Origin: Cyanobacteria bacterium CG_2015-22_32_23
GTDB lineage: Bacteria > Cyanobacteriota > Cyanobacteriia > Cyanobacteriales > Cyanobacteriaceae
Assembly (NCBI GenBank): GCA_009993045.1
Contig: JAACUG010000072.1
Coordinates: forward strand, 8,171 to 72,170
Direction: 5' to 3'
DNA: 64,000 bases
Shown one piece after another: positions 7,131 through 55,045 of the stretch; positions within the stretch are counted from its first letter, which is position 1, and every line of letters begins with the position of its first letter. The notes beneath the pieces are model-generated. The model worked only from the letters and a program-made list of their open reading frames with translations, was not told where the DNA came from and did not search any database. Both the position numbers and the translations under genes were made by a program.

Positions 7131-8222
7131 ATGAAAATTGGTGTCCCTAAAGAAATTAAAGATCAAGAATTTCGAGTTGGCTTAACTCCAGCGAGTATAA
7201 AGGTTTTAACCCAACAAAACCATCAAGTATTTATAGAAGAAAATGCTGGAATTGGTTCTGGTTTTAGCAACGAAGATTATCAAAAAGTAGGGGCAACTAT
7301 TGTTGATACTCAAACCGCATGGCATCAAGAGTTAATTATTAAAGTCAAAGAGCCTCTTTCTTCTGAGTACAAATATATTAATCAAGAACAAATATTATTT
7401 ACTTACCTTCATTTAGCAGCAGATCGTAGTTTAACAGAATTTCTCCTTAAAAGTGGTGTAACAGCGATCGCTTATGAAACCGTACAATTAGCTGACGGCA
7501 GATTACCTCTTTTGACTCCTATGAGTATTATTGCAGGAAAACTAGCCGTACAAATAGGTGCAAGATATTTAGAAAAACAACAAGGAGGCAAAGGGGTATT
7601 ATTAGGGGGAATAGCAGGGGTTGAGCAAGGAAATGTGGTGATTTTGGGAGGAGGAATCGTTGGCACGGAAGCGGCTAAAATTGCGGTGGGTATGGGTGCA
7701 AAAGTTACTATTCTTGATGTGAGTATTGATAGATTAGCTTACTTAGAAACCCTTTTTGGATCGAGAGTTGAGCTATTATATAGTAACTCTCAACATATCG
7801 CTCAAGCAGTGATTAAAGCCGATTTATTAATTGGTGCGGTATTAATTACAGGGAAAAAAGCTCCTATTCTCGTATCAAGGGAATTAGTCAAAAAAATGTC
7901 TGAAGGTTCGGTGATTATGGATGTAGCTGTAGATCAAGGTGGTTGTATTGAAACTTTACGCACAACTTCCCATAGTCAACCTAGTTATATAGAAGAAGGG
8001 GTAATTCATTTAGGTATTCCTAACCTTCCGGGCGCAGTACCTTGGACAGCTACACAAGCATTAAATAATAATACTTTACCTTATGTTCTCAAATTAGCTA
8101 ATCAAGGAATTGGGGCGTTAAAACAAGATGCCAGTTTAGCACTAGGGTTAAATATACAATCTCATCATTTAGTACATCCAGCCGTACAACAGGTTTTCCC
8201 TGATATGGCGATCGCCCATTAA
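7131..8222 (+). CDS. ald: Alanine dehydrogenase
   Basis: The 363-aa enzyme interconverts L-alanine and pyruvate plus ammonium with NAD. It starts with the family signature MKIGVPKEIKDQEFRVGLTP, has the substrate-binding TYLHLAADRSLTEFLL block with its His, and the NAD Rossmann motif VVILGGGIVGTEAAKIA near residue 170. The C-terminal NLPGAVPWTATQALNN block is also diagnostic. Length equals the family norm. It is transcribed away from the GT2 gene. A MITE-like element begins 2 bp after the stop codon. Confidence 0.96.
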   Translation: MKIGVPKEIKDQEFRVGLTPASIKVLTQQNHQVFIEENAGIGSGFSNEDYQKVGATIVDTQTAWHQELIIKVKEPLSSEYKYINQEQILFTYLHLAADRSLTEFLLKSGVTAIAYETVQLADGRLPLLTPMSIIAGKLAVQIGARYLEKQQGGKGVLLGGIAGVEQGNVVILGGGIVGTEAAKIAVGMGAKVTILDVSIDRLAYLETLFGSRVELLYSNSQHIAQAVIKADLLIGAVLITGKKAPILVSRELVKKMSEGSVIMDVAVDQGGCIETLRTTSHSQPSYIEEGVIHLGIPNLPGAVPWTATQALNNNTLPYVLKLANQGIGALKQDASLALGLNIQSHHLVHPAVQQVFPDMAIAH

Positions 8223-47118: not shown

Positions 47119-49239
47119 ATGGAAGAACTATTAATATATATCAAAATTGTTAAAAGAAGATGGCCTTTTGCTCTGGTTACATTTATGGCGGTATTTTACT
47201 TTTTAGGTTATCAAAGATCTAAAGAAACAGTACCTCTTTACCGTGCTACAGGGACAATTATTTTTGATCAACAAACCGCTACTATTACTGATCCATTTTC
47301 TTTAGGAGGACAGAATAAATTAACTAATGATTTAGTGTTAATAAAATCAGAATCTTTAGCCGAAAAAGTCAAAAAAGATTTAGAATTTTCCTTGGAAATG
47401 GATACGAAAAAACTTCTTCAAAATTTAGTAGCAATTAATCCAGAAAAAAGTGACGTAATTCAGTTATCTTTTACCGATGAAGATCCAAAAAAAGCCTCTG
47501 AAATTGTTAACGCTTGGATTAATAATTATGTGCAATTAGATAAAGATCAAAAAGTTTCTCAAACTAAAGAATTAGCCAAATTTTTAGAAAAACAAATTCC
47601 CGAAAGTCAAAAATCTTTAGAATCAACAGCAGAAAAACTGAAAAATTTTAAACAAGATAATCGTATTTTAGATATTACCGCAGAAGCCACTTCTACCATT
47701 ACTATTATTAGCCAATTAGATAGTCAAATCGCTACTATTCAAGCTGATTTAGCTGCTCAAAAATCTCGCCGAGATTCTCTGAAACAAATTTTTTCGGTAG
47801 ATGCTCAAAGTGCTATTACTTCTAGTTTTGTGAGTGAATCTCCTATTGTTGCTTCTTTAGTTAAACAAATTGAAGAAATTAAAACTAAAATTGAACAAGA
47901 AAAAGTCCGTTTTGGCGATCGCCATCCCCAAGTAATTACGTTACAAAAACAAGAAGCAGTTTTACAAGAACAATTAGCAAAATATGCACAAAATACTAAT
48001 ATTCAAGGAAACTTACCACAAAATTTAGAAGGTATTTATCAACCGGGTACAACCCAAAGTACATTATTAGCAGAATATGCCACTACAGAAAGACAAATAC
48101 AAAGTTTAGAAGCTCAATTAAGTTCATTAAAAGATCTCATTAATGTGTATCGACAAAGAGTTGATGTACTTCCTAATTTAGAATTTCAACAACAACAATT
48201 ACAACGGGAATTAACCGCTAGAAGTGATGTATTACAGAACTTAATTAAAAATTATCAAGATGCTCAAATTGCCATCAATAATACCCAAGGAAATATTCGT
48301 TCGGCAGAATTAGCAACCATACCCAAAGAAGCCGCTATTAACCGTCGATTAAGTTATTTATTTCAAGGTTTTTTGGGGGGTATTCTTGCAGGTTCTATAG
48401 TAGCTTATTTAGTCGAAAAACTAGATCAAAAAGTTAATAGTATTGAACAGGTTAAAGAATATTTTGAGCAACCTGTAATGGGTAAAATACCTGATTTTAA
48501 TCGACGGAAAAAAGATGAAATTAAAAGTAATTTACCGACAAGAGATAACCCTTCTTCTCCTATTAGTGAGAATTTTCGGGCGCTTTGTACCAGTATCAAC
48601 TTTATGACAAATAATGATAAACCCTTAAAAGTCATTACTATTTCTAGCTCGGTAGCAGGGGAAGGAAAATCGACTATTGCGGCAAATATCGCCGTGGCTG
48701 CGGCAGGATTAGGTAGTAAAGTACTGTTAATGGAAGCCGATTTACGCAAACCGGGGCAAAGAAAAATATGGGAAAATATAGATAAAAAAGCAGGTTTAAG
48801 CGATTTATTACATAGCGATGGACAATCGGAATTATCTGAGTCTGTTGTGACGGTAATGCCCAATTTAGATATTTTACCCGCAGGAAACACTAAATCTAAT
48901 CCTGTAGCCTTAATTGGTTCTGCTCAAATGGTACATTTACTAGAAAAAATCAGAGATGAATATGATTTAGTGATTATTGACGCACCTCCTGTTAGTGTAG
49001 CGGCTGATGCTCAAATTTTGTCAAGAATGAGCGATGGAATGTTGATGGTTATAAGACAAGGAAAAGCTACCAATTCGATTTTAGCTAATGCCGCTGAATC
49101 CTTATTACAAGCTGAGGTTAATGTTTTGGGTATATTATTAAACTGTTTCACCTCTGACAGTGATAGTTACTATTATTACTATAATTATTCATACTATTAC
49201 GATAAAAAAGACAAGAAAAAAAGTAAATTATTTGGTTAA
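47119..49239 (+). CDS. Wzc-like polysaccharide co-polymerase and tyrosine autokinase
   Basis: The 706-aa inner-membrane protein has an N-terminal Wzz domain with a first membrane segment (WPFALVTFMAVFYFLGY), a periplasmic coiled-coil region (residues 150-390), and a second segment (YLFQGFLGGILAGSIVAYL) near 420. The cytoplasmic BY-kinase domain has Walker A AGEGKST (513-519), Walker A' LLMEADLRKPGQ and Walker B LVIIDAPPVS. The C-terminal tyrosine cluster (DSYYYYYNYSYYYD) is the autophosphorylation tail. It controls chain length and export with the Wza-like protein upstream. Confidence 0.93.
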   Translation: MEELLIYIKIVKRRWPFALVTFMAVFYFLGYQRSKETVPLYRATGTIIFDQQTATITDPFSLGGQNKLTNDLVLIKSESLAEKVKKDLEFSLEMDTKKLLQNLVAINPEKSDVIQLSFTDEDPKKASEIVNAWINNYVQLDKDQKVSQTKELAKFLEKQIPESQKSLESTAEKLKNFKQDNRILDITAEATSTITIISQLDSQIATIQADLAAQKSRRDSLKQIFSVDAQSAITSSFVSESPIVASLVKQIEEIKTKIEQEKVRFGDRHPQVITLQKQEAVLQEQLAKYAQNTNIQGNLPQNLEGIYQPGTTQSTLLAEYATTERQIQSLEAQLSSLKDLINVYRQRVDVLPNLEFQQQQLQRELTARSDVLQNLIKNYQDAQIAINNTQGNIRSAELATIPKEAAINRRLSYLFQGFLGGILAGSIVAYLVEKLDQKVNSIEQVKEYFEQPVMGKIPDFNRRKKDEIKSNLPTRDNPSSPISENFRALCTSINFMTNNDKPLKVITISSSVAGEGKSTIAANIAVAAAGLGSKVLLMEADLRKPGQRKIWENIDKKAGLSDLLHSDGQSELSESVVTVMPNLDILPAGNTKSNPVALIGSAQMVHLLEKIRDEYDLVIIDAPPVSVAADAQILSRMSDGMLMVIRQGKATNSILANAAESLLQAEVNVLGILLNCFTSDSDSYYYYYNYSYYYDKKDKKKSKLFG

Positions 49240-49308
49240 AAATATATAAATATAAAAGTTTCATTGATTAATACTGCATAAAATTAGTTTTCAAGACTGA
49301 TAAATGGA

Positions 49309-49448
49309 TATATAGACATTTTGATCATCCGACTTAGATAAATATATTAGTCGTAAAAGACTAAACATGGTATAAACATAAACGCATAATTATGTAGGCA
49401 TTAGGTAAGCAATAATCATGATATTTATTCTCTAAGTCGGATTTTTTT
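49309..49448 (+). ncRNA. Candidate structured small RNA with terminator-like closing stem
   Basis: ATCCGACTTAGA (49327-49338) pairs with TCTAAGTCGGAT (49431-49442). The stem extends by TAAATAT (49339-49345) with ATATTTA (49421-49427) after a 3-nt bulge, and ends in a T-run (49442-49448). Inside are a TTAGTC-GTAAAA-GACTAA hairpin (49347-49364) and a CATAATTATG palindrome. A TATATA -10-like box at 49309-49314 would start a transcript just before the stem. This looks like an RNA of about 120 nt ended by its own closing stem. No known family is recognised. The rest of the 324-bp gap is AT-rich. Confidence 0.5.
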
Positions 49449-49563
49449 ATCTCTTTTTCAGAAATAAATTTGCAAAAAATGTAGTTAACCTAACATCATA
49501 TTTACTATTATTACAATATAATTGAAATTAATGTCAATGAAATCAGTTTAATTATAAGATTTT

Positions 49564-50313
49564 ATGCTGAGACATAAAGTTATGACGAAAATAAAAATAG
49601 TCGTGGCAAATATGGGAGAAAGTAAATCTTTCTTTAGGGGCATAACACTTATAGAATTATTAATAGCCATAGTGGTTGGGAGTATTGTCTTAACGGCGGC
49701 AGCTAGTGGAATGATTAATTTATTAACAGTAAATAACAGTATAGAATCAAAAACTATTCGTAATGCTGGGTTAGTAAAAGCATTAGCTTATATTCAAGAT
49801 GACATTAAAAGGGCAAAATATATCACGGCAGAAAAAGCTACATCTGGTGGTAATTGTAATTCGTTAGATATTGATTCTGGTGATTGTTTAGTTTTAACTT
49901 ATCCTGATAATACACCTTTAAGAGTGGGATGTGATGGCGTTACTCCCACAATTTATTATGGATTTAAAGATATTAGTAATAACAAAAATGAAATTTGGCT
50001 TAAACCGGGTATTCTGAAAAGAAAAATTATTTGTACTAATGGTAGTGTGGGTAATTGGATTGTTATTGCTGATGGGTTATTAGGCAAAAAAGAAGTTAAT
50101 CTCATCACAACATTGATTAATAATCCCGATTTTTGTACTCAAGATAGCATTAAATGGACAGGAAATTTAACAGTTTATGGTGAAGGAGGATTTAGATTTT
50201 GTTTGCAGGAGAGTCATAATCAAAATAGATTGGCAAGAATTTTTTTATATGGACATATTATTAACGATAAACCCATTAGTTTAAGTACTATCATTTTTAC
50301 AAGAAGCCAATAG
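49564..50313 (+). CDS. Type IV pilin-like (pseudopilin) protein
   Basis: The 249-aa protein has a prepilin peptidase site RG-ITLIELLIAIVVGSIVL, with Glu at position +5 and a hydrophobic N-terminal helix, preceded by a long basic leader. The C-terminal globular part has Cys-rich segments (GGNCNSLDIDSGDCLVL, FCTQDSIKW) that probably form disulfides. Such minor pilins or Hps-like pseudopilins join type IV pilus or secretion machines. An alternative start at 49582 (second Met) is equally possible. It stands alone; no pilus gene is adjacent. The stop codon is followed after 7 bp by a MITE-like element. Confidence 0.8.
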   Translation: MLRHKVMTKIKIVVANMGESKSFFRGITLIELLIAIVVGSIVLTAAASGMINLLTVNNSIESKTIRNAGLVKALAYIQDDIKRAKYITAEKATSGGNCNSLDIDSGDCLVLTYPDNTPLRVGCDGVTPTIYYGFKDISNNKNEIWLKPGILKRKIICTNGSVGNWIVIADGLLGKKEVNLITTLINNPDFCTQDSIKWTGNLTVYGEGGFRFCLQESHNQNRLARIFLYGHIINDKPISLSTIIFTRSQ

Positions 50314-50510: not shown

Positions 50511-53024
50511 ATGAAAAACCTTGCCCAGTTGTTGACTTGGTTAAAAGAATCTACCGCTATCGGTATTTTATCAGATGAAATTCTCAGGGCGATCGCATCT
50601 TTATTGGAAAAAATTTCTTTTGGGGAAAATGAAATCATCACTACAGAAAATCAACCCATTGAAAGAGTATATATTGTAGAAGAAGGTCAACTTCAAACTC
50701 AAGGAAATAACGAAAATTATTGTTTAATTTCAGGTTCAATAATTAATCTCAAAGAATTATTATTACAACAACCAGCAAAAAATACCATTAAAAGTTTAAC
50801 TCAAGTAAAATTATGGTATCTTTCTAGTGTCAATATTCAAAAATTAGTGGCACAATATCCGCAAATTAGTCAAATATTTACCCAAAAATTAGCCCAAGAA
50901 GTTGCTAACTTATCTTCTCAATTGAGCTTTGAGCAAGAAAGACAAACCATATTACGACCATATTTAATTACCAAAGCCAAACGAGGAATTGTTGGCAAAA
51001 GTCGCTATGCCGTCAGAATCAGACAACAGGTAAAAAATGCCACAGAAGATCGTAAACCAGTTGTAATTTTTGGTGAACAAGGATTAGAAAAAGATAACCT
51101 AGCGGCTTTAATTCATTATAGTTCGCCTGATCGCCGAGAGCCTATTATAAAAGTTAATTGCGCAAAATTACAAGCTAGTGGAGCAGAATTATTTGGACGA
51201 GAAGGAGGAAAATTAGGTTTAATTGAAGCATTAGGAAACGGTACTTTAATTTTTAATAATATTCAAGATTTACCGCCAGAATTAAATGATGACATTTTAC
51301 AACTTTTAAAACATAAAACTTATACCCCTGTTAATCGCTCTGATAATAGTAATAAATCAGTCAAAATCTGTCAAGCTCGTCTCATATTTATTAATGAAAA
51401 AGCCATTGCTAAAATTAATAATACCGTCACTCATTTAATTAAAGTGCCTCCTTTACGAGTCAGAAAAGCTGATTTAGAAGATCAAGTAAACTACTATATC
51501 AGTTTAATTTCCCGTAACCGCAGAGTTAATAAACCAAAAATAACTCCTGAAGCCTTACGCCGACTTCAAGGCTATGATTTTCCCAATAATTTACGAGAAT
51601 TAGAAAACCTCATTGAAAGGGCGATGGTACAACTTTCTGGTTGTAATGAATTAACGGAAGAAATTATCTGGCAATCTCGCAATAAAAAGCAACAATTTCG
51701 GTTTAATTTACTTAATGCCTATCCTAAATTGCGTAGTTTTCTCCGAAGTCCTTGGTATCCAGATCGTATCAATTATGCCTTTACTTTAATCATTTTTGCT
51801 TTTATTGTCGGAATTTTATTTTTAGCCCCACAAAATCGTCAGGAAAACTTCGCTCTTAACCTTTTTTGGGCATGGTGGTGGCCTTTAATTTTAGTATCCT
51901 TTCCTTTTGTCGGTAGGTTGTGGTGTTCTTTTTGTCCCTTTATGATTTATGGGGAAGTTACACAAAAAATTTCTTTATGGCTATTCCCTAGACAATTAAA
52001 ATCATGGCCCAGACAAGAAGCTGAAAAATGGGGGGGATGGTTTTTATTTGGATTATTCACCTTGATTATATTATGGGAAGAGCTTTGGAATTTACCTAAC
52101 ACTGCCTATCTTTCTGCTTGGTTATTACTCTTGATTACCGCAGGAGCTATGATCTGTTCAACTATCTTTGAAAGACGCTTCTGGTGTCGTTATTTATGTC
52201 CCATCGGAGGCATGAATGGTATGTTTGCTAAACTTTCCATGACGGAATTACGAGCCCAACAGGGAACTTGTTCCGCAGAATGTACTACTTATCAATGCTA
52301 TAAAGGTGGAGTGCAAAAAGGAGAAGGATTAGAAACCCTTGGTTGCCCTTTATACTCCCATCCAGCGCAATTGCAGGATAATCGAGATTGTGTATTATGT
52401 ATGACTTGCTTAAAAGCCTGTCCCCATCGCTCAGTCACTTTTAATCTTCGCCCTCCTGCTATTGAATTATGGACAACTCATCAACCTCGTAATTATGAAG
52501 TAGCATTATTATTTCTCCTATTAAATGCCGTTTTTCTGCATAAATTGCCTGAAATTAATCTCTTTTTCCGTTTATCCTTAGATTTGACTCAATTTTGGCT
52601 ACATTCAGCCATGGCGATCGCCGTTTTAATTTTACCGATGATTTTACCCTTGATGGGGTACAGCATTATAAAGTTAATTTGTCAAGTTAAAAATATACAA
52701 TGTCGTGGTTTTATGGAATTAGCCTATGGTTATTTACCCTTAGTGTTGTGTGCAAATTTAGCCTACTATCTACATTTAGGTTTAGGAGAAGCTGGGAGAA
52801 TTTTACCAGTAGCTTGGGCAACTTTTGGCTTAGATGGTAGTAGTTTACCGATTTTTGTGGCTCATCCTGCCGTTATTACATTTTTACAAGGAATTACCAT
52901 TATTTTCGGTGTTATCCTCGCAGTTATTCTCAGTCAAAAAATTTCTCGTCAATCCATTAAAACATTATTTCCGCAACATTTTTCAACAATTATTTTTGGT
53001 ATTCTTTTTTGGGTAATTATTTAA
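50511..53024 (+). CDS. cNMP-binding/degenerate sigma54-type AAA/polyferredoxin membrane protein
   Basis: The 837-aa protein fuses three parts. Residues 1-140 are a cyclic-nucleotide-binding-like fold (IERVYIVEEGQLQ). Residues 155-390 follow the sigma54-activator AAA pattern (IVGKSRYAVRIRQQV, PIIKVNCAKL, LRELENLIERA). The C-terminal 430 residues have about eight membrane segments and NapH/NosR-like iron-sulfur motifs (LWCSFCPFMIYGE, FWCRYLCPIGGM, DCVLCMTCLKACPH). The AAA site is degenerate: Walker A is GEQGLEKDN, Walker B is LIFNNIQDLP instead of LFLDEIGELP, and no GAFTGA loop exists. It may be a redox-linked membrane sensor. Related fusions are annotated in cyanobacteria as sigma54-interacting regulators. 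Confidence 0.8.
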   Translation: MKNLAQLLTWLKESTAIGILSDEILRAIASLLEKISFGENEIITTENQPIERVYIVEEGQLQTQGNNENYCLISGSIINLKELLLQQPAKNTIKSLTQVKLWYLSSVNIQKLVAQYPQISQIFTQKLAQEVANLSSQLSFEQERQTILRPYLITKAKRGIVGKSRYAVRIRQQVKNATEDRKPVVIFGEQGLEKDNLAALIHYSSPDRREPIIKVNCAKLQASGAELFGREGGKLGLIEALGNGTLIFNNIQDLPPELNDDILQLLKHKTYTPVNRSDNSNKSVKICQARLIFINEKAIAKINNTVTHLIKVPPLRVRKADLEDQVNYYISLISRNRRVNKPKITPEALRRLQGYDFPNNLRELENLIERAMVQLSGCNELTEEIIWQSRNKKQQFRFNLLNAYPKLRSFLRSPWYPDRINYAFTLIIFAFIVGILFLAPQNRQENFALNLFWAWWWPLILVSFPFVGRLWCSFCPFMIYGEVTQKISLWLFPRQLKSWPRQEAEKWGGWFLFGLFTLIILWEELWNLPNTAYLSAWLLLLITAGAMICSTIFERRFWCRYLCPIGGMNGMFAKLSMTELRAQQGTCSAECTTYQCYKGGVQKGEGLETLGCPLYSHPAQLQDNRDCVLCMTCLKACPHRSVTFNLRPPAIELWTTHQPRNYEVALLFLLLNAVFLHKLPEINLFFRLSLDLTQFWLHSAMAIAVLILPMILPLMGYSIIKLICQVKNIQCRGFMELAYGYLPLVLCANLAYYLHLGLGEAGRILPVAWATFGLDGSSLPIFVAHPAVITFLQGITIIFGVILAVILSQKISRQSIKTLFPQHFSTIIFGILFWVII

Positions 53025-53050: not shown

Positions 53051-55045
53051 TTACGATAAATCAATAGTTTCTACTATCCAATCTTCCGAAGATAAATCAG
53101 CAGTTTCCATAGCTTTTTGACAGAAAGAATAAATGTCTTTTGAAGATAATTGAACTTCAACAAAAGCACCATTTTTAAGTTGACGATTACAGCGTAAATC
53201 TTTCTCATCCCATGCCAAAAAACGAGGAAATTGCTCCATTATTTCTTTAAATTTTTCTGGTTCAGAATCTGCTAAAATGTTTAGTGTCGTTTCTAAAACA
53301 TCTCGCCAACTTTTGACAGAATATTCCTCTCCAAAAAGTCGTAAAATTTTAGGAATAGTACCCGTAACGTTACTTTTTATTAAAACAGGTTGAGATTTAT
53401 CACCAAAATATGACCATATTTTAAGACATTTTTCAACTAATAATCTTGCCCTTTTTTCTATGTCTTCTCTTTGCCAATAATTAACGGTAGTGAAATATTT
53501 ATTTAACTCTAAATGACTCTCTTTTAAGGCTTTTTGTTTATTAATAAAAGTATCATTAGAAAGTTCAGAATTATAAGCAGTTAAAGTTAAATTGCCTAAA
53601 GAATGTATCAATAAATTATAAGTAATATCTGAATCTTCACCTAAATAATTTTTCCACCAATCACTTAAAGTTTGAGGCATAATATGTTCAATAGTTAGAT
53701 TATCAAAAGATACTTTTTCTTTATGCTCGAAAGATTCTTCTAAAGACTCTAAAATAAGTTTAGCTTTTTCTGAACGATTGCCACCATAAAGTTTTACTTC
53801 CATTAATCTAGTTTTAAAATCATCATCTTGAGGGTAATTTTGATTTTGTAAACTTAACTTTAATTGTTGTAAAAAAGTACGAGAAGATAAATTAATTTCT
53901 TTCCTTATTTGAGAATATAATGTTGCAAAAATACGATTTAATCCTCTAGTTTGAACATTACAAATAAATCTTCGTAAAAGATAATTTTCAATAATTTTAA
54001 AAATATTAATTAACTCTTCTTCATTAATAAAATTAGTTTTCCATCCATGATAGCAATTCAAAATAAAAGGATAAACAGTTTTAACATCTAAACGTTTAAG
54101 ACGATATAAATATTTTCTGATTAAAGGATTTTCTTCTAAAGTTGGATTAAGAATAATAGCATAATATTTACTAAATCTAAATAAGTCTTTTAAATAAGAA
54201 AGTGTTTGAGCTCTATTAACCTTATTCTTAAGATAAAAATAAATCTCATTTTGATTAATAATAACTCCATTTTTTGTTAAATAATGACGAATAAAATCCG
54301 TTAAATTTTCCCCTAAAAGACGTTGCATAGGTAGCCAATATTGACGATAAATTAAATCTTGTTCATCCTCATTTATTTGCATAAAGAAATAATTACGAAT
54401 CAAGTCAGCTTGAGTTAATGGCTTTCCTTTAGCATTAAGACTTTCAAATACCAGATAAGGATTATCATCTTTACCTAATAAAATTCTTACCACAATTAAG
54501 CTATTACAAATAATATTTTTTATTTTCTGTATTTCTAAATCTTTTCTTTGCTTAATTTTCTTTTCAAAGAATAAATAACAATCATTAATATTATTAATAT
54601 TTTTGTCAATATTTGACTCTCTTTTAACTATATTATAAAAAGATTTTCTATCAACTTGAGTCGGATTTAATTTAAAATAATCTGATTCTTTACTATAAGC
54701 ATTTACCAAAAAACGATCATTAATTTCTGCCGCTAATTGAAGACTATCTAAAGAAGTAGCTTTATCTCTTAAAACAGCTAACAAAATAAAGATAGTAGTT
54801 AATCTTTGTTGCCCATCAATTAATAAAAATTTAGTGACACCTTCGGGTAAAGATTCCGTTTGCATTGTCACAATTGAACCCATAAAATGAGGGTATAAAT
54901 TATCACTATAATAAAGTTCTATAATATCTTCCCACAACAATTCCCAATGAGATTTTTCCCAACTATAAGAGCGCTGAAATAAAGGAATAACATATTGTTT
55001 TGTACCTTCAATAATTTCTTGTAATTTAGTCTCAGAGGCTTGCAT
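53051..55045 (-). CDS. DUF262/DUF1524 (GmrSD-like) protein
   Basis: The 664-aa protein has an N-terminal DUF262 domain with VIPLFQRSYSWEKSHWELLWEDI and the nucleotide-site motif D77-G-Q-Q-R81 in LLIDGQQRLTTI. The C-terminal DUF1524 domain shows the HNH-like LTIEHIMPQTLSDWW and HSLGNLTLTAYNSELSN. About 120 further residues follow. This architecture is that of GmrSD-type modification-dependent restriction enzymes and of SspE-like defence proteins. No partner restriction or modification genes are adjacent, so a solitary defence role is inferred, not shown. Confidence 0.88.
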   Translation of the reverse strand: MQASETKLQEIIEGTKQYVIPLFQRSYSWEKSHWELLWEDIIELYYSDNLYPHFMGSIVTMQTESLPEGVTKFLLIDGQQRLTTIFILLAVLRDKATSLDSLQLAAEINDRFLVNAYSKESDYFKLNPTQVDRKSFYNIVKRESNIDKNINNINDCYLFFEKKIKQRKDLEIQKIKNIICNSLIVVRILLGKDDNPYLVFESLNAKGKPLTQADLIRNYFFMQINEDEQDLIYRQYWLPMQRLLGENLTDFIRHYLTKNGVIINQNEIYFYLKNKVNRAQTLSYLKDLFRFSKYYAIILNPTLEENPLIRKYLYRLKRLDVKTVYPFILNCYHGWKTNFINEEELINIFKIIENYLLRRFICNVQTRGLNRIFATLYSQIRKEINLSSRTFLQQLKLSLQNQNYPQDDDFKTRLMEVKLYGGNRSEKAKLILESLEESFEHKEKVSFDNLTIEHIMPQTLSDWWKNYLGEDSDITYNLLIHSLGNLTLTAYNSELSNDTFINKQKALKESHLELNKYFTTVNYWQREDIEKRARLLVEKCLKIWSYFGDKSQPVLIKSNVTGTIPKILRLFGEEYSVKSWRDVLETTLNILADSEPEKFKEIMEQFPRFLAWDEKDLRCNRQLKNGAFVEVQLSSKDIYSFCQKAMETADLSSEDWIVETIDLS

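Follow-up and report, generated by a model that had tools for sequence, protein, structure and literature searches.

PsrR1/SyR1 is a cyanobacterial trans-acting sRNA of about 131 nt (PMC6202907, PMC6091082). Like PsrR1, which it nearly equals in size, the RNA described here is predicted to have an independent promoter, to act at a ribosome-binding region and to be expressed in connection with stress (PMC6202907, PMC6091082, for PsrR1). PsrR1 is broadly distributed and regulates photosynthesis mRNAs, whereas this RNA was found in two genera only and has trcR as its predicted target. PsrR1 was compared by description only; when 342 and 390 genomes were searched, the model of our RNA gave no match beyond the two genera, contrary to the distribution of PsrR1.

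TrcR is the RHH repressor All0854 of Anabaena sp. PCC 7120 and controls translation-stress genes; its targets, all repressed, are its own gene, a tRNA operon, rtcB, rsgA and rimK (PMC10272220). The autoregulatory TrcR box, ATACTACACTTGTATTAC, contains the -10 and the start site, and a change of L44 to P inactivates the Anabaena protein (PMC10272220). When translation inhibitors are given, the TrcR protein falls despite derepression of trcR, and translational inhibition of the trcR mRNA was left open (PMC10272220). The RNA reported here would act on the same regulator and the same 5' region as this autoregulation, and the proposed pairing site starts at the end of the TrcR box and transcription start. 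Unlike pairing, the published control is transcriptional, and TrcR was studied in Anabaena whereas the RNA is confined, as found, to two genera.

Like 6S RNA (ssaA, RF00013), it is a cyanobacterial RNA whose structure is closed by a long stem; unlike 6S RNA, it has no RF00013 match. Identity with 6S was rejected, as the canonical 6S RNA is located at a separate locus (C118) and none in the window. The Ter (TerD/TerB/TerF)-type stress gene network is also a known system. As in that network, the genes linked to the RNA by a promoter motif include TerD, TerF-like and TerB domains, together with VWA, Hsp70, dynamin-like and kinase genes; neither a promoter motif in common nor an sRNA among its members has, as far as we searched, been described for it.

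The window, that is, the whole stretch of DNA analysed, comprises 64,000 nt of contig JAACUG010000072.1 from Cyanobacteria bacterium CG_2015-22_32_23 (positions 8,171 to 72,170 of the forward strand). All coordinates below are positions in the window, and those of the features are collected in Table 1.

Table 1. Position of the small RNA, its parts, its promoter and its neighbours in the window.
Feature	Coordinates	Strand	Evidence or remark
Wzc-like polysaccharide co-polymerase/kinase (AAA_31), upstream neighbour	47119-49239	+	not a fixed neighbour of the RNA
Promoter of the RNA: -35-like CTGCAT (49274-49279), 17-nt spacer, -10-like CTGATA (49297-49302)	49272-49302	+	7 of 7 genomes, constant spacing
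Small RNA gene	49315-49448	+	covariance model matches 49316-49448 at 140.7 bits; predicted 5' end ~49310-49316; length ~133 nt
5' tail GACATT, unpaired; copies the first half of the core	49315-49320	+	GACATT in 6 of 7 homologues, GACTTT in G004
P1 closing stem, 5' arm (12 + 7)	49327-49345	+	fold, covariation
P2 hairpin, TTAGTC/GACTAA	49347-49364	+	fold, covariation
P3, 5' arm CATGGT (partner 49415-49420)	49366-49371	+	97.6% of cells paired; double changes in 3 of 6 pairs
P4 hairpin, ACATAA/TTATGT	49376-49395	+	double changes in 5 of 6 pairs
Unpaired core GGCATTAGGTAA, proposed antisense seed for trcR mRNA	49397-49408	+	best-conserved unpaired stretch; complementarity to trcR 5'UTR
P3, 3' arm ATCATG	49415-49420	+	covariation
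P1, 3' arm including bulge TTC (49428-49430)	49421-49442	+	fold, covariation
T-run, seven T; terminator together with P1	49442-49448	+	T-run retained in all homologues
Pseudopilin-like protein (N_methyl), downstream neighbour	49564-50313	+	not a fixed neighbour of the RNA

An earlier note, made from the letters of the window, had described a 19-bp closing stem (12 plus 7 with a 3-nt bulge) enclosing at least two hairpins and ending in a T-run. The stem was confirmed both in the sequence and in the fold. Its outer 12 bp pair ATCCGACTTAGA (49327-49338) with TCTAAGTCGGAT (49431-49442), arms which lie 92 nt apart, and its inner 7 bp pair TAAATAT (49339-49345) with ATATTTA (49421-49427), the bulge lying on the 3' side. 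The two hairpins are P2 and P4, to which P3 is added as a further helix, and the T-run stands at the end of the element. The MFE of the RNA was -31.2 kcal/mol (z = -3.9), and none of 200 shuffles was equally stable in the comparison that the note had proposed. Since the antisense strand folded equally well (z = -4.2), fold energy alone cannot assign the strand, and the RNA was placed on the + strand because of the T-run, the promoter and the homologues. A TATATA exists near 49308-49313, where the note had seen a -10-like box immediately ahead of the stem; the conserved promoter, however, is placed slightly farther upstream, and TATATA is more likely the transcription start region than a -10 box. 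There is no ORF of at least 15 codons on the RNA strand. The RNA had no match in Rfam 15 at the gathering threshold, nor even at E <= 5; the family is thus unmatched in Rfam, and its kind, the trans-acting sRNA, is already known.

Of 60 relatives searched by nucleotide sequence, all four other Geminocystis genomes had homologues, as did two from a second genus. With the covariance model, the RNA was present as a single copy in each of the seven genomes, i.e. five of Geminocystis (G000-G004, including Geminocystis sp. NIES-3708, G001, and Geminocystis sp. GBBB08, G003) and two of the Cyanobacterium aponinum genus (G008 and C. aponinum PCC 10605, G011). Scores were 104-141 bits, those of the six genomes other than that of the window being 104-131 bits. 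Among the remaining genomes of the samples taken (15 of the family, 342 of the order and 390 of the class) the model found no copy; these samples overlap, and stricter filters were used in the two larger ones, in which weak matches were possibly lost. None was found in viral contigs. For genera g2-g4 we also considered a diverged form of the RNA and rejected it: core-like 11-mers were about as frequent there as the reversed control, and the best covariance-model match (L211) lay antisense within a coding gene.

The aligned homologues support a consensus of 37 pairs comprising P1 (19 bp), P2, P3 and P4. In this consensus 88.8% of cells were paired, compared with 33-40% in slid controls. Double (compensatory) changes, whose absence among relatives the note had named among the grounds for rejecting the element, occurred in 12 of the 37 pairs against 5.6 in shuffles, and none of 500 shuffles reached 12. 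Covariation in the alignment provides the conserved secondary structure looked for in a trans-acting sRNA, and the structured RNA element is confirmed as real. The imperfect 19-bp inverted termini flanking about 75-90 nt would also suit a MITE-like mobile inverted-repeat element or another decayed insertion, but the single copy per genome, on which we rejected it, the occurrence in two genera, the compensatory changes and the fixed promoter leave this an almost negligible probability.

The genes on either side of the RNA differ among the seven genomes. The order wzc, RNA, pilin is found in G000 and G001. G002 has wzc upstream and no pilin; G004 has a different upstream gene, with the pilin downstream; in G003 the upstream region is unrelated and the pilin is reduced to a remnant; and in G008 and G011 a larB-like gene (named by eye) lies beside the RNA and the pilin is absent. 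Throughout, the promoter-like block about 45 nt upstream and the terminator accompany the RNA while the flanking genes change. By sequence conservation and synteny, the RNA carries a promoter and a rho-independent terminator of its own, neither of which depends on the flanking genes. Because the neighbours differ while the promoter and terminator stay with the RNA, an attenuator and a wzc 3' end are disfavoured and an independent sRNA is favoured.

The note had offered two alternatives, an independent sRNA or a leader controlling the pseudopilin gene by attenuation, and it is the first that these neighbourhoods support. As a leader or attenuator in the 5' region of a pseudopilin operon, the RNA should keep its place before the pilin gene; it does lie upstream of it on the same strand in G000, G001 and G004, but the downstream pilin is missing from three genomes and present as a remnant alone in a fourth. 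Moreover, the structure closes with a full terminator, an alternative antiterminator was not seen, and the pilin start lies more than 110 nt beyond the T-run. The leader reading, largely refuted by this synteny, appears highly improbable. It is likewise very unlikely that the element is a cis-acting 3' end of wzc, a terminator with a stabilising structure and no promoter of its own. In three genomes wzc ends about 80 nt before the RNA, and P1 with the T-run resembles a terminator, but in G003, G004, G008 and G011 the upstream gene is another one and the promoter, the core and all helices remain. A conserved block, ATTGAAATTAATGTCAATGAAAT, was seen upstream of the pilin gene (49521-49545), with similar blocks in G001, G003 and G004; it carries AATGTC, which could pair weakly with GACATT of the RNA.

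The promoter block of the independent RNA belongs to a motif that recurs in these genomes. It reads (T/C)TGCAT ... CTGATA, a -35/-10-like pair 17 nt apart, with an A-tract upstream and conserved TA steps downstream. We searched for TAYTGCATAAWTT-N11-ACTGATA with at most two mismatches and obtained 75 sites (16 in G000, 7 each in G001 and G002, 8 in G003, 10 in G004, 16 in G008 and 11 in G011); the reversed pattern gave 0 matches in each of the seven genomes. The site of the RNA is the sole one in the window, where 0.07 were expected, and the promoter of the RNA is a member in all seven genomes. A close variant of the motif is rare elsewhere in the order. At 52 of the 67 other sites an ORF starts within 130 nt of the motif, whereas at the sites associated with the RNA the nearest ORF is 165-291 nt off, or there is none. 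Sites in G000 include C31:11117, C46:37311, C47:4475, C57:39432, C97:694, C98:8420, C126:5690 and C128:12626.

The proteins encoded behind the motif include TerD, TerD+vWA (TerF-like), TerB, VWA, Hsp70, DnaJ, dynamin-like GTPases and Tubulin_2, as well as kinase-TPR, TPR, ADP-ribosylglycohydrolase, a WYL regulator, PLD-helicase and GmrSD. The motif presumably acts as a promoter and apparently marks a stress/conflict regulon; judging from the kinds of genes behind it, a stress or conflict signal likely induces the regulon, and induction of the RNA probably accompanies that of stress and defence genes. The motif would unite in a single regulon, with an sRNA member in every genome, the Ter-type stress genes, chaperones, dynamin-like GTPases and defence genes. 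No TerD/dynamin regulon of cyanobacteria was found in the papers searched, and the promoter regulon appears to be undescribed in searchable papers. Directly behind the motif in G003 (L088:1222-2184) and G001 (L124), a gene for a WYL-domain regulator is followed by genes that look CRISPR-like by eye.

The best-conserved unpaired stretch of the RNA is its core, GRCAUUAGGUAA in Geminocystis (G[AG]CATTAGGTAA in DNA form) and GACAUUGAGUAUG in the C. aponinum genus (GACATTGAGTATG in DNA, GACGTTGAGTATG in G008). The complement of the core, which alone was searched genome-wide, was used to look for targets in the five Geminocystis genomes. In G000 and G004 the search led to the orthologous 5'UTR of one gene of 111 amino acids, and a cognate site is present in the orthologues of all seven RNA-bearing genomes. 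The Geminocystis site is T(T/C)ACCTAATGTC, just upstream of AAAGGA (TTAACCTAATGTC in G002), and the C. aponinum site is ATACTCAATGTC; compared with Geminocystis, both core and site are changed at 3 of 12 positions, and this apparent joint change rests on one main divergence between the genera. The predicted pairing site borders the Shine-Dalgarno sequence on its upstream side and lies at the mRNA 5' end or close to it. An exact search of more than 4 Mb gave a single copy of ATACTCAATGTC in G008 and two in G011 apart from the RNA itself; the trcR 5'UTR accounts for one of them. Antisense action at start codons was considered and rejected, as the core complement TTACCTAATG starts no long ORF in 20 sites examined, a list from which the trcR 5'UTR site also comes.

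The protein of 111 amino acids is identified as TrcR by L44, which is invariant in the trcR orthologues compared, and by the autoregulatory box over its promoter. The box ATACTACACTTGTATTAC is found exactly in G017 and as ATACTACTCTAGT.TTAC or similar in Geminocystis. No significant Pfam match to an RHH domain was found in the protein, and the RHH assignment is taken from the Anabaena study (PMC10272220). A structure model (pLDDT 77) added nothing to the argument. In the trcR 5'UTRs L188-L204 the TrcR box is retained across the family, and in the same set the trcR leaders of C. aponinum and of genus g4, in which the RNA was not found, have two AATGTC-like copies.

Duplex prediction between the full-length RNA and the UTR was uninformative owing to long loops, and core-only duplexes with controls were used instead. 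With its own 5'UTR (-60 to +20) each core gave -17.4 to -22.5 kcal/mol. Duplexes as good as the cognate one were formed by 0-2 of 438 control start regions per genome and by 0-16 of 2000 shuffled UTRs. Cross-genus duplexes were weaker: both for Geminocystis and for C. aponinum, the cores fit the UTRs of the other genus less well than their own. Part of the trcR 5'UTR is conserved for a separate reason (TrcR box, AATGTC), even in genera that yielded no RNA, and the UTR of G007, from one such genus, reached -15.7 to -17.0 with these cores. When RNA and mRNA were co-folded without pseudoknots, pairing of the core was favoured in G002 and G004 and pairing of the 5' tail in the other genomes, GACAUU of the tail pairing with AAUGUC of the trcR mRNA in several co-folds. 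Energies of the co-folds were clearly better than those of shuffles in G002, G003 and G004 only. Because the core lies within a closed internal loop, a 12-bp helix is topologically constrained. A conserved unpaired seed which is complementary to a target mRNA and varies with it was found in two genera, with full co-folds that are ambiguous. Pairing of the core with the 5' end of the trcR mRNA is well supported computationally.

We consider it probable that the element is an independent trans-acting sRNA of about 133 nt, made from a promoter of the regulon, whose core pairs with the trcR mRNA and lowers TrcR. A dedicated CTGCAT-N17-CTGATA-type promoter, common to the stress/conflict regulon, would drive the RNA, and the P1/T-run terminator of the RNA would end its transcription. 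The RNA would accumulate whenever the regulon is activated, and its unpaired core would bind the trcR mRNA at the 5' end, just upstream of the Shine-Dalgarno sequence. Pairing would hinder translation or destabilise the message, TrcR would fall, and the translation-stress genes that it represses would be released. The conserved structure, the independence from neighbours, the shared promoter motif and the cognate complementarity to trcR, changing jointly in two genera, are shown computationally; we infer from them the transcription of the RNA, its pairing in the cell, the negative effect, the inducing signal and a factor that reads the promoter.

An independent sRNA could also have other mRNAs or a protein as its main partner, or its pairing could activate trcR by protecting the 5' end. 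The evidence for an sRNA does not depend on trcR, the genome-wide target search covered the core complement alone, and the mRNA 5' end lies within the predicted site, where pairing can prevent 5'-end-dependent decay or stabilise a message. The cognate complementarity, however, follows the change of the core between genera, and the site is directly upstream of the Shine-Dalgarno sequence, which makes a main role outside trcR, or an activating one, rather unlikely.

If lowering of TrcR by the RNA is true, it would account, in this lineage, for a drop in TrcR at a time when trcR transcription goes up, and it gives a named sRNA-target pair for the open question of a protein drop despite gene derepression (PMC10272220). 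In the papers searched, no sRNA acting on trcR and no sRNA of Geminocystis was found, and the connection between trcR and an sRNA appears to be undescribed in searchable papers. More tentatively, it is possible, if somewhat doubtful, that in Geminocystis and its sister genus one promoter class drives both a conflict/stress regulon (Ter, Hsp70, dynamin-like, tubulin-like, CRISPR-associated and restriction genes) and an sRNA silencing TrcR, in which case the sensing of attack or damage would directly unlock tRNA and ribosome repair genes.

Two further proteins are encoded farther along the window. A large one (50511-53024) combines cyclic-nucleotide-binding, sigma-54-activator-type AAA and membrane Fer4_5 ferredoxin-like domains. 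Sigma-54 is not known from cyanobacteria; if it is absent, a sigma-54-activator-type AAA protein is odd here. On the opposite strand, just downstream of the region, 53051-55045 (-) encodes a GmrSD-type restriction-like protein.
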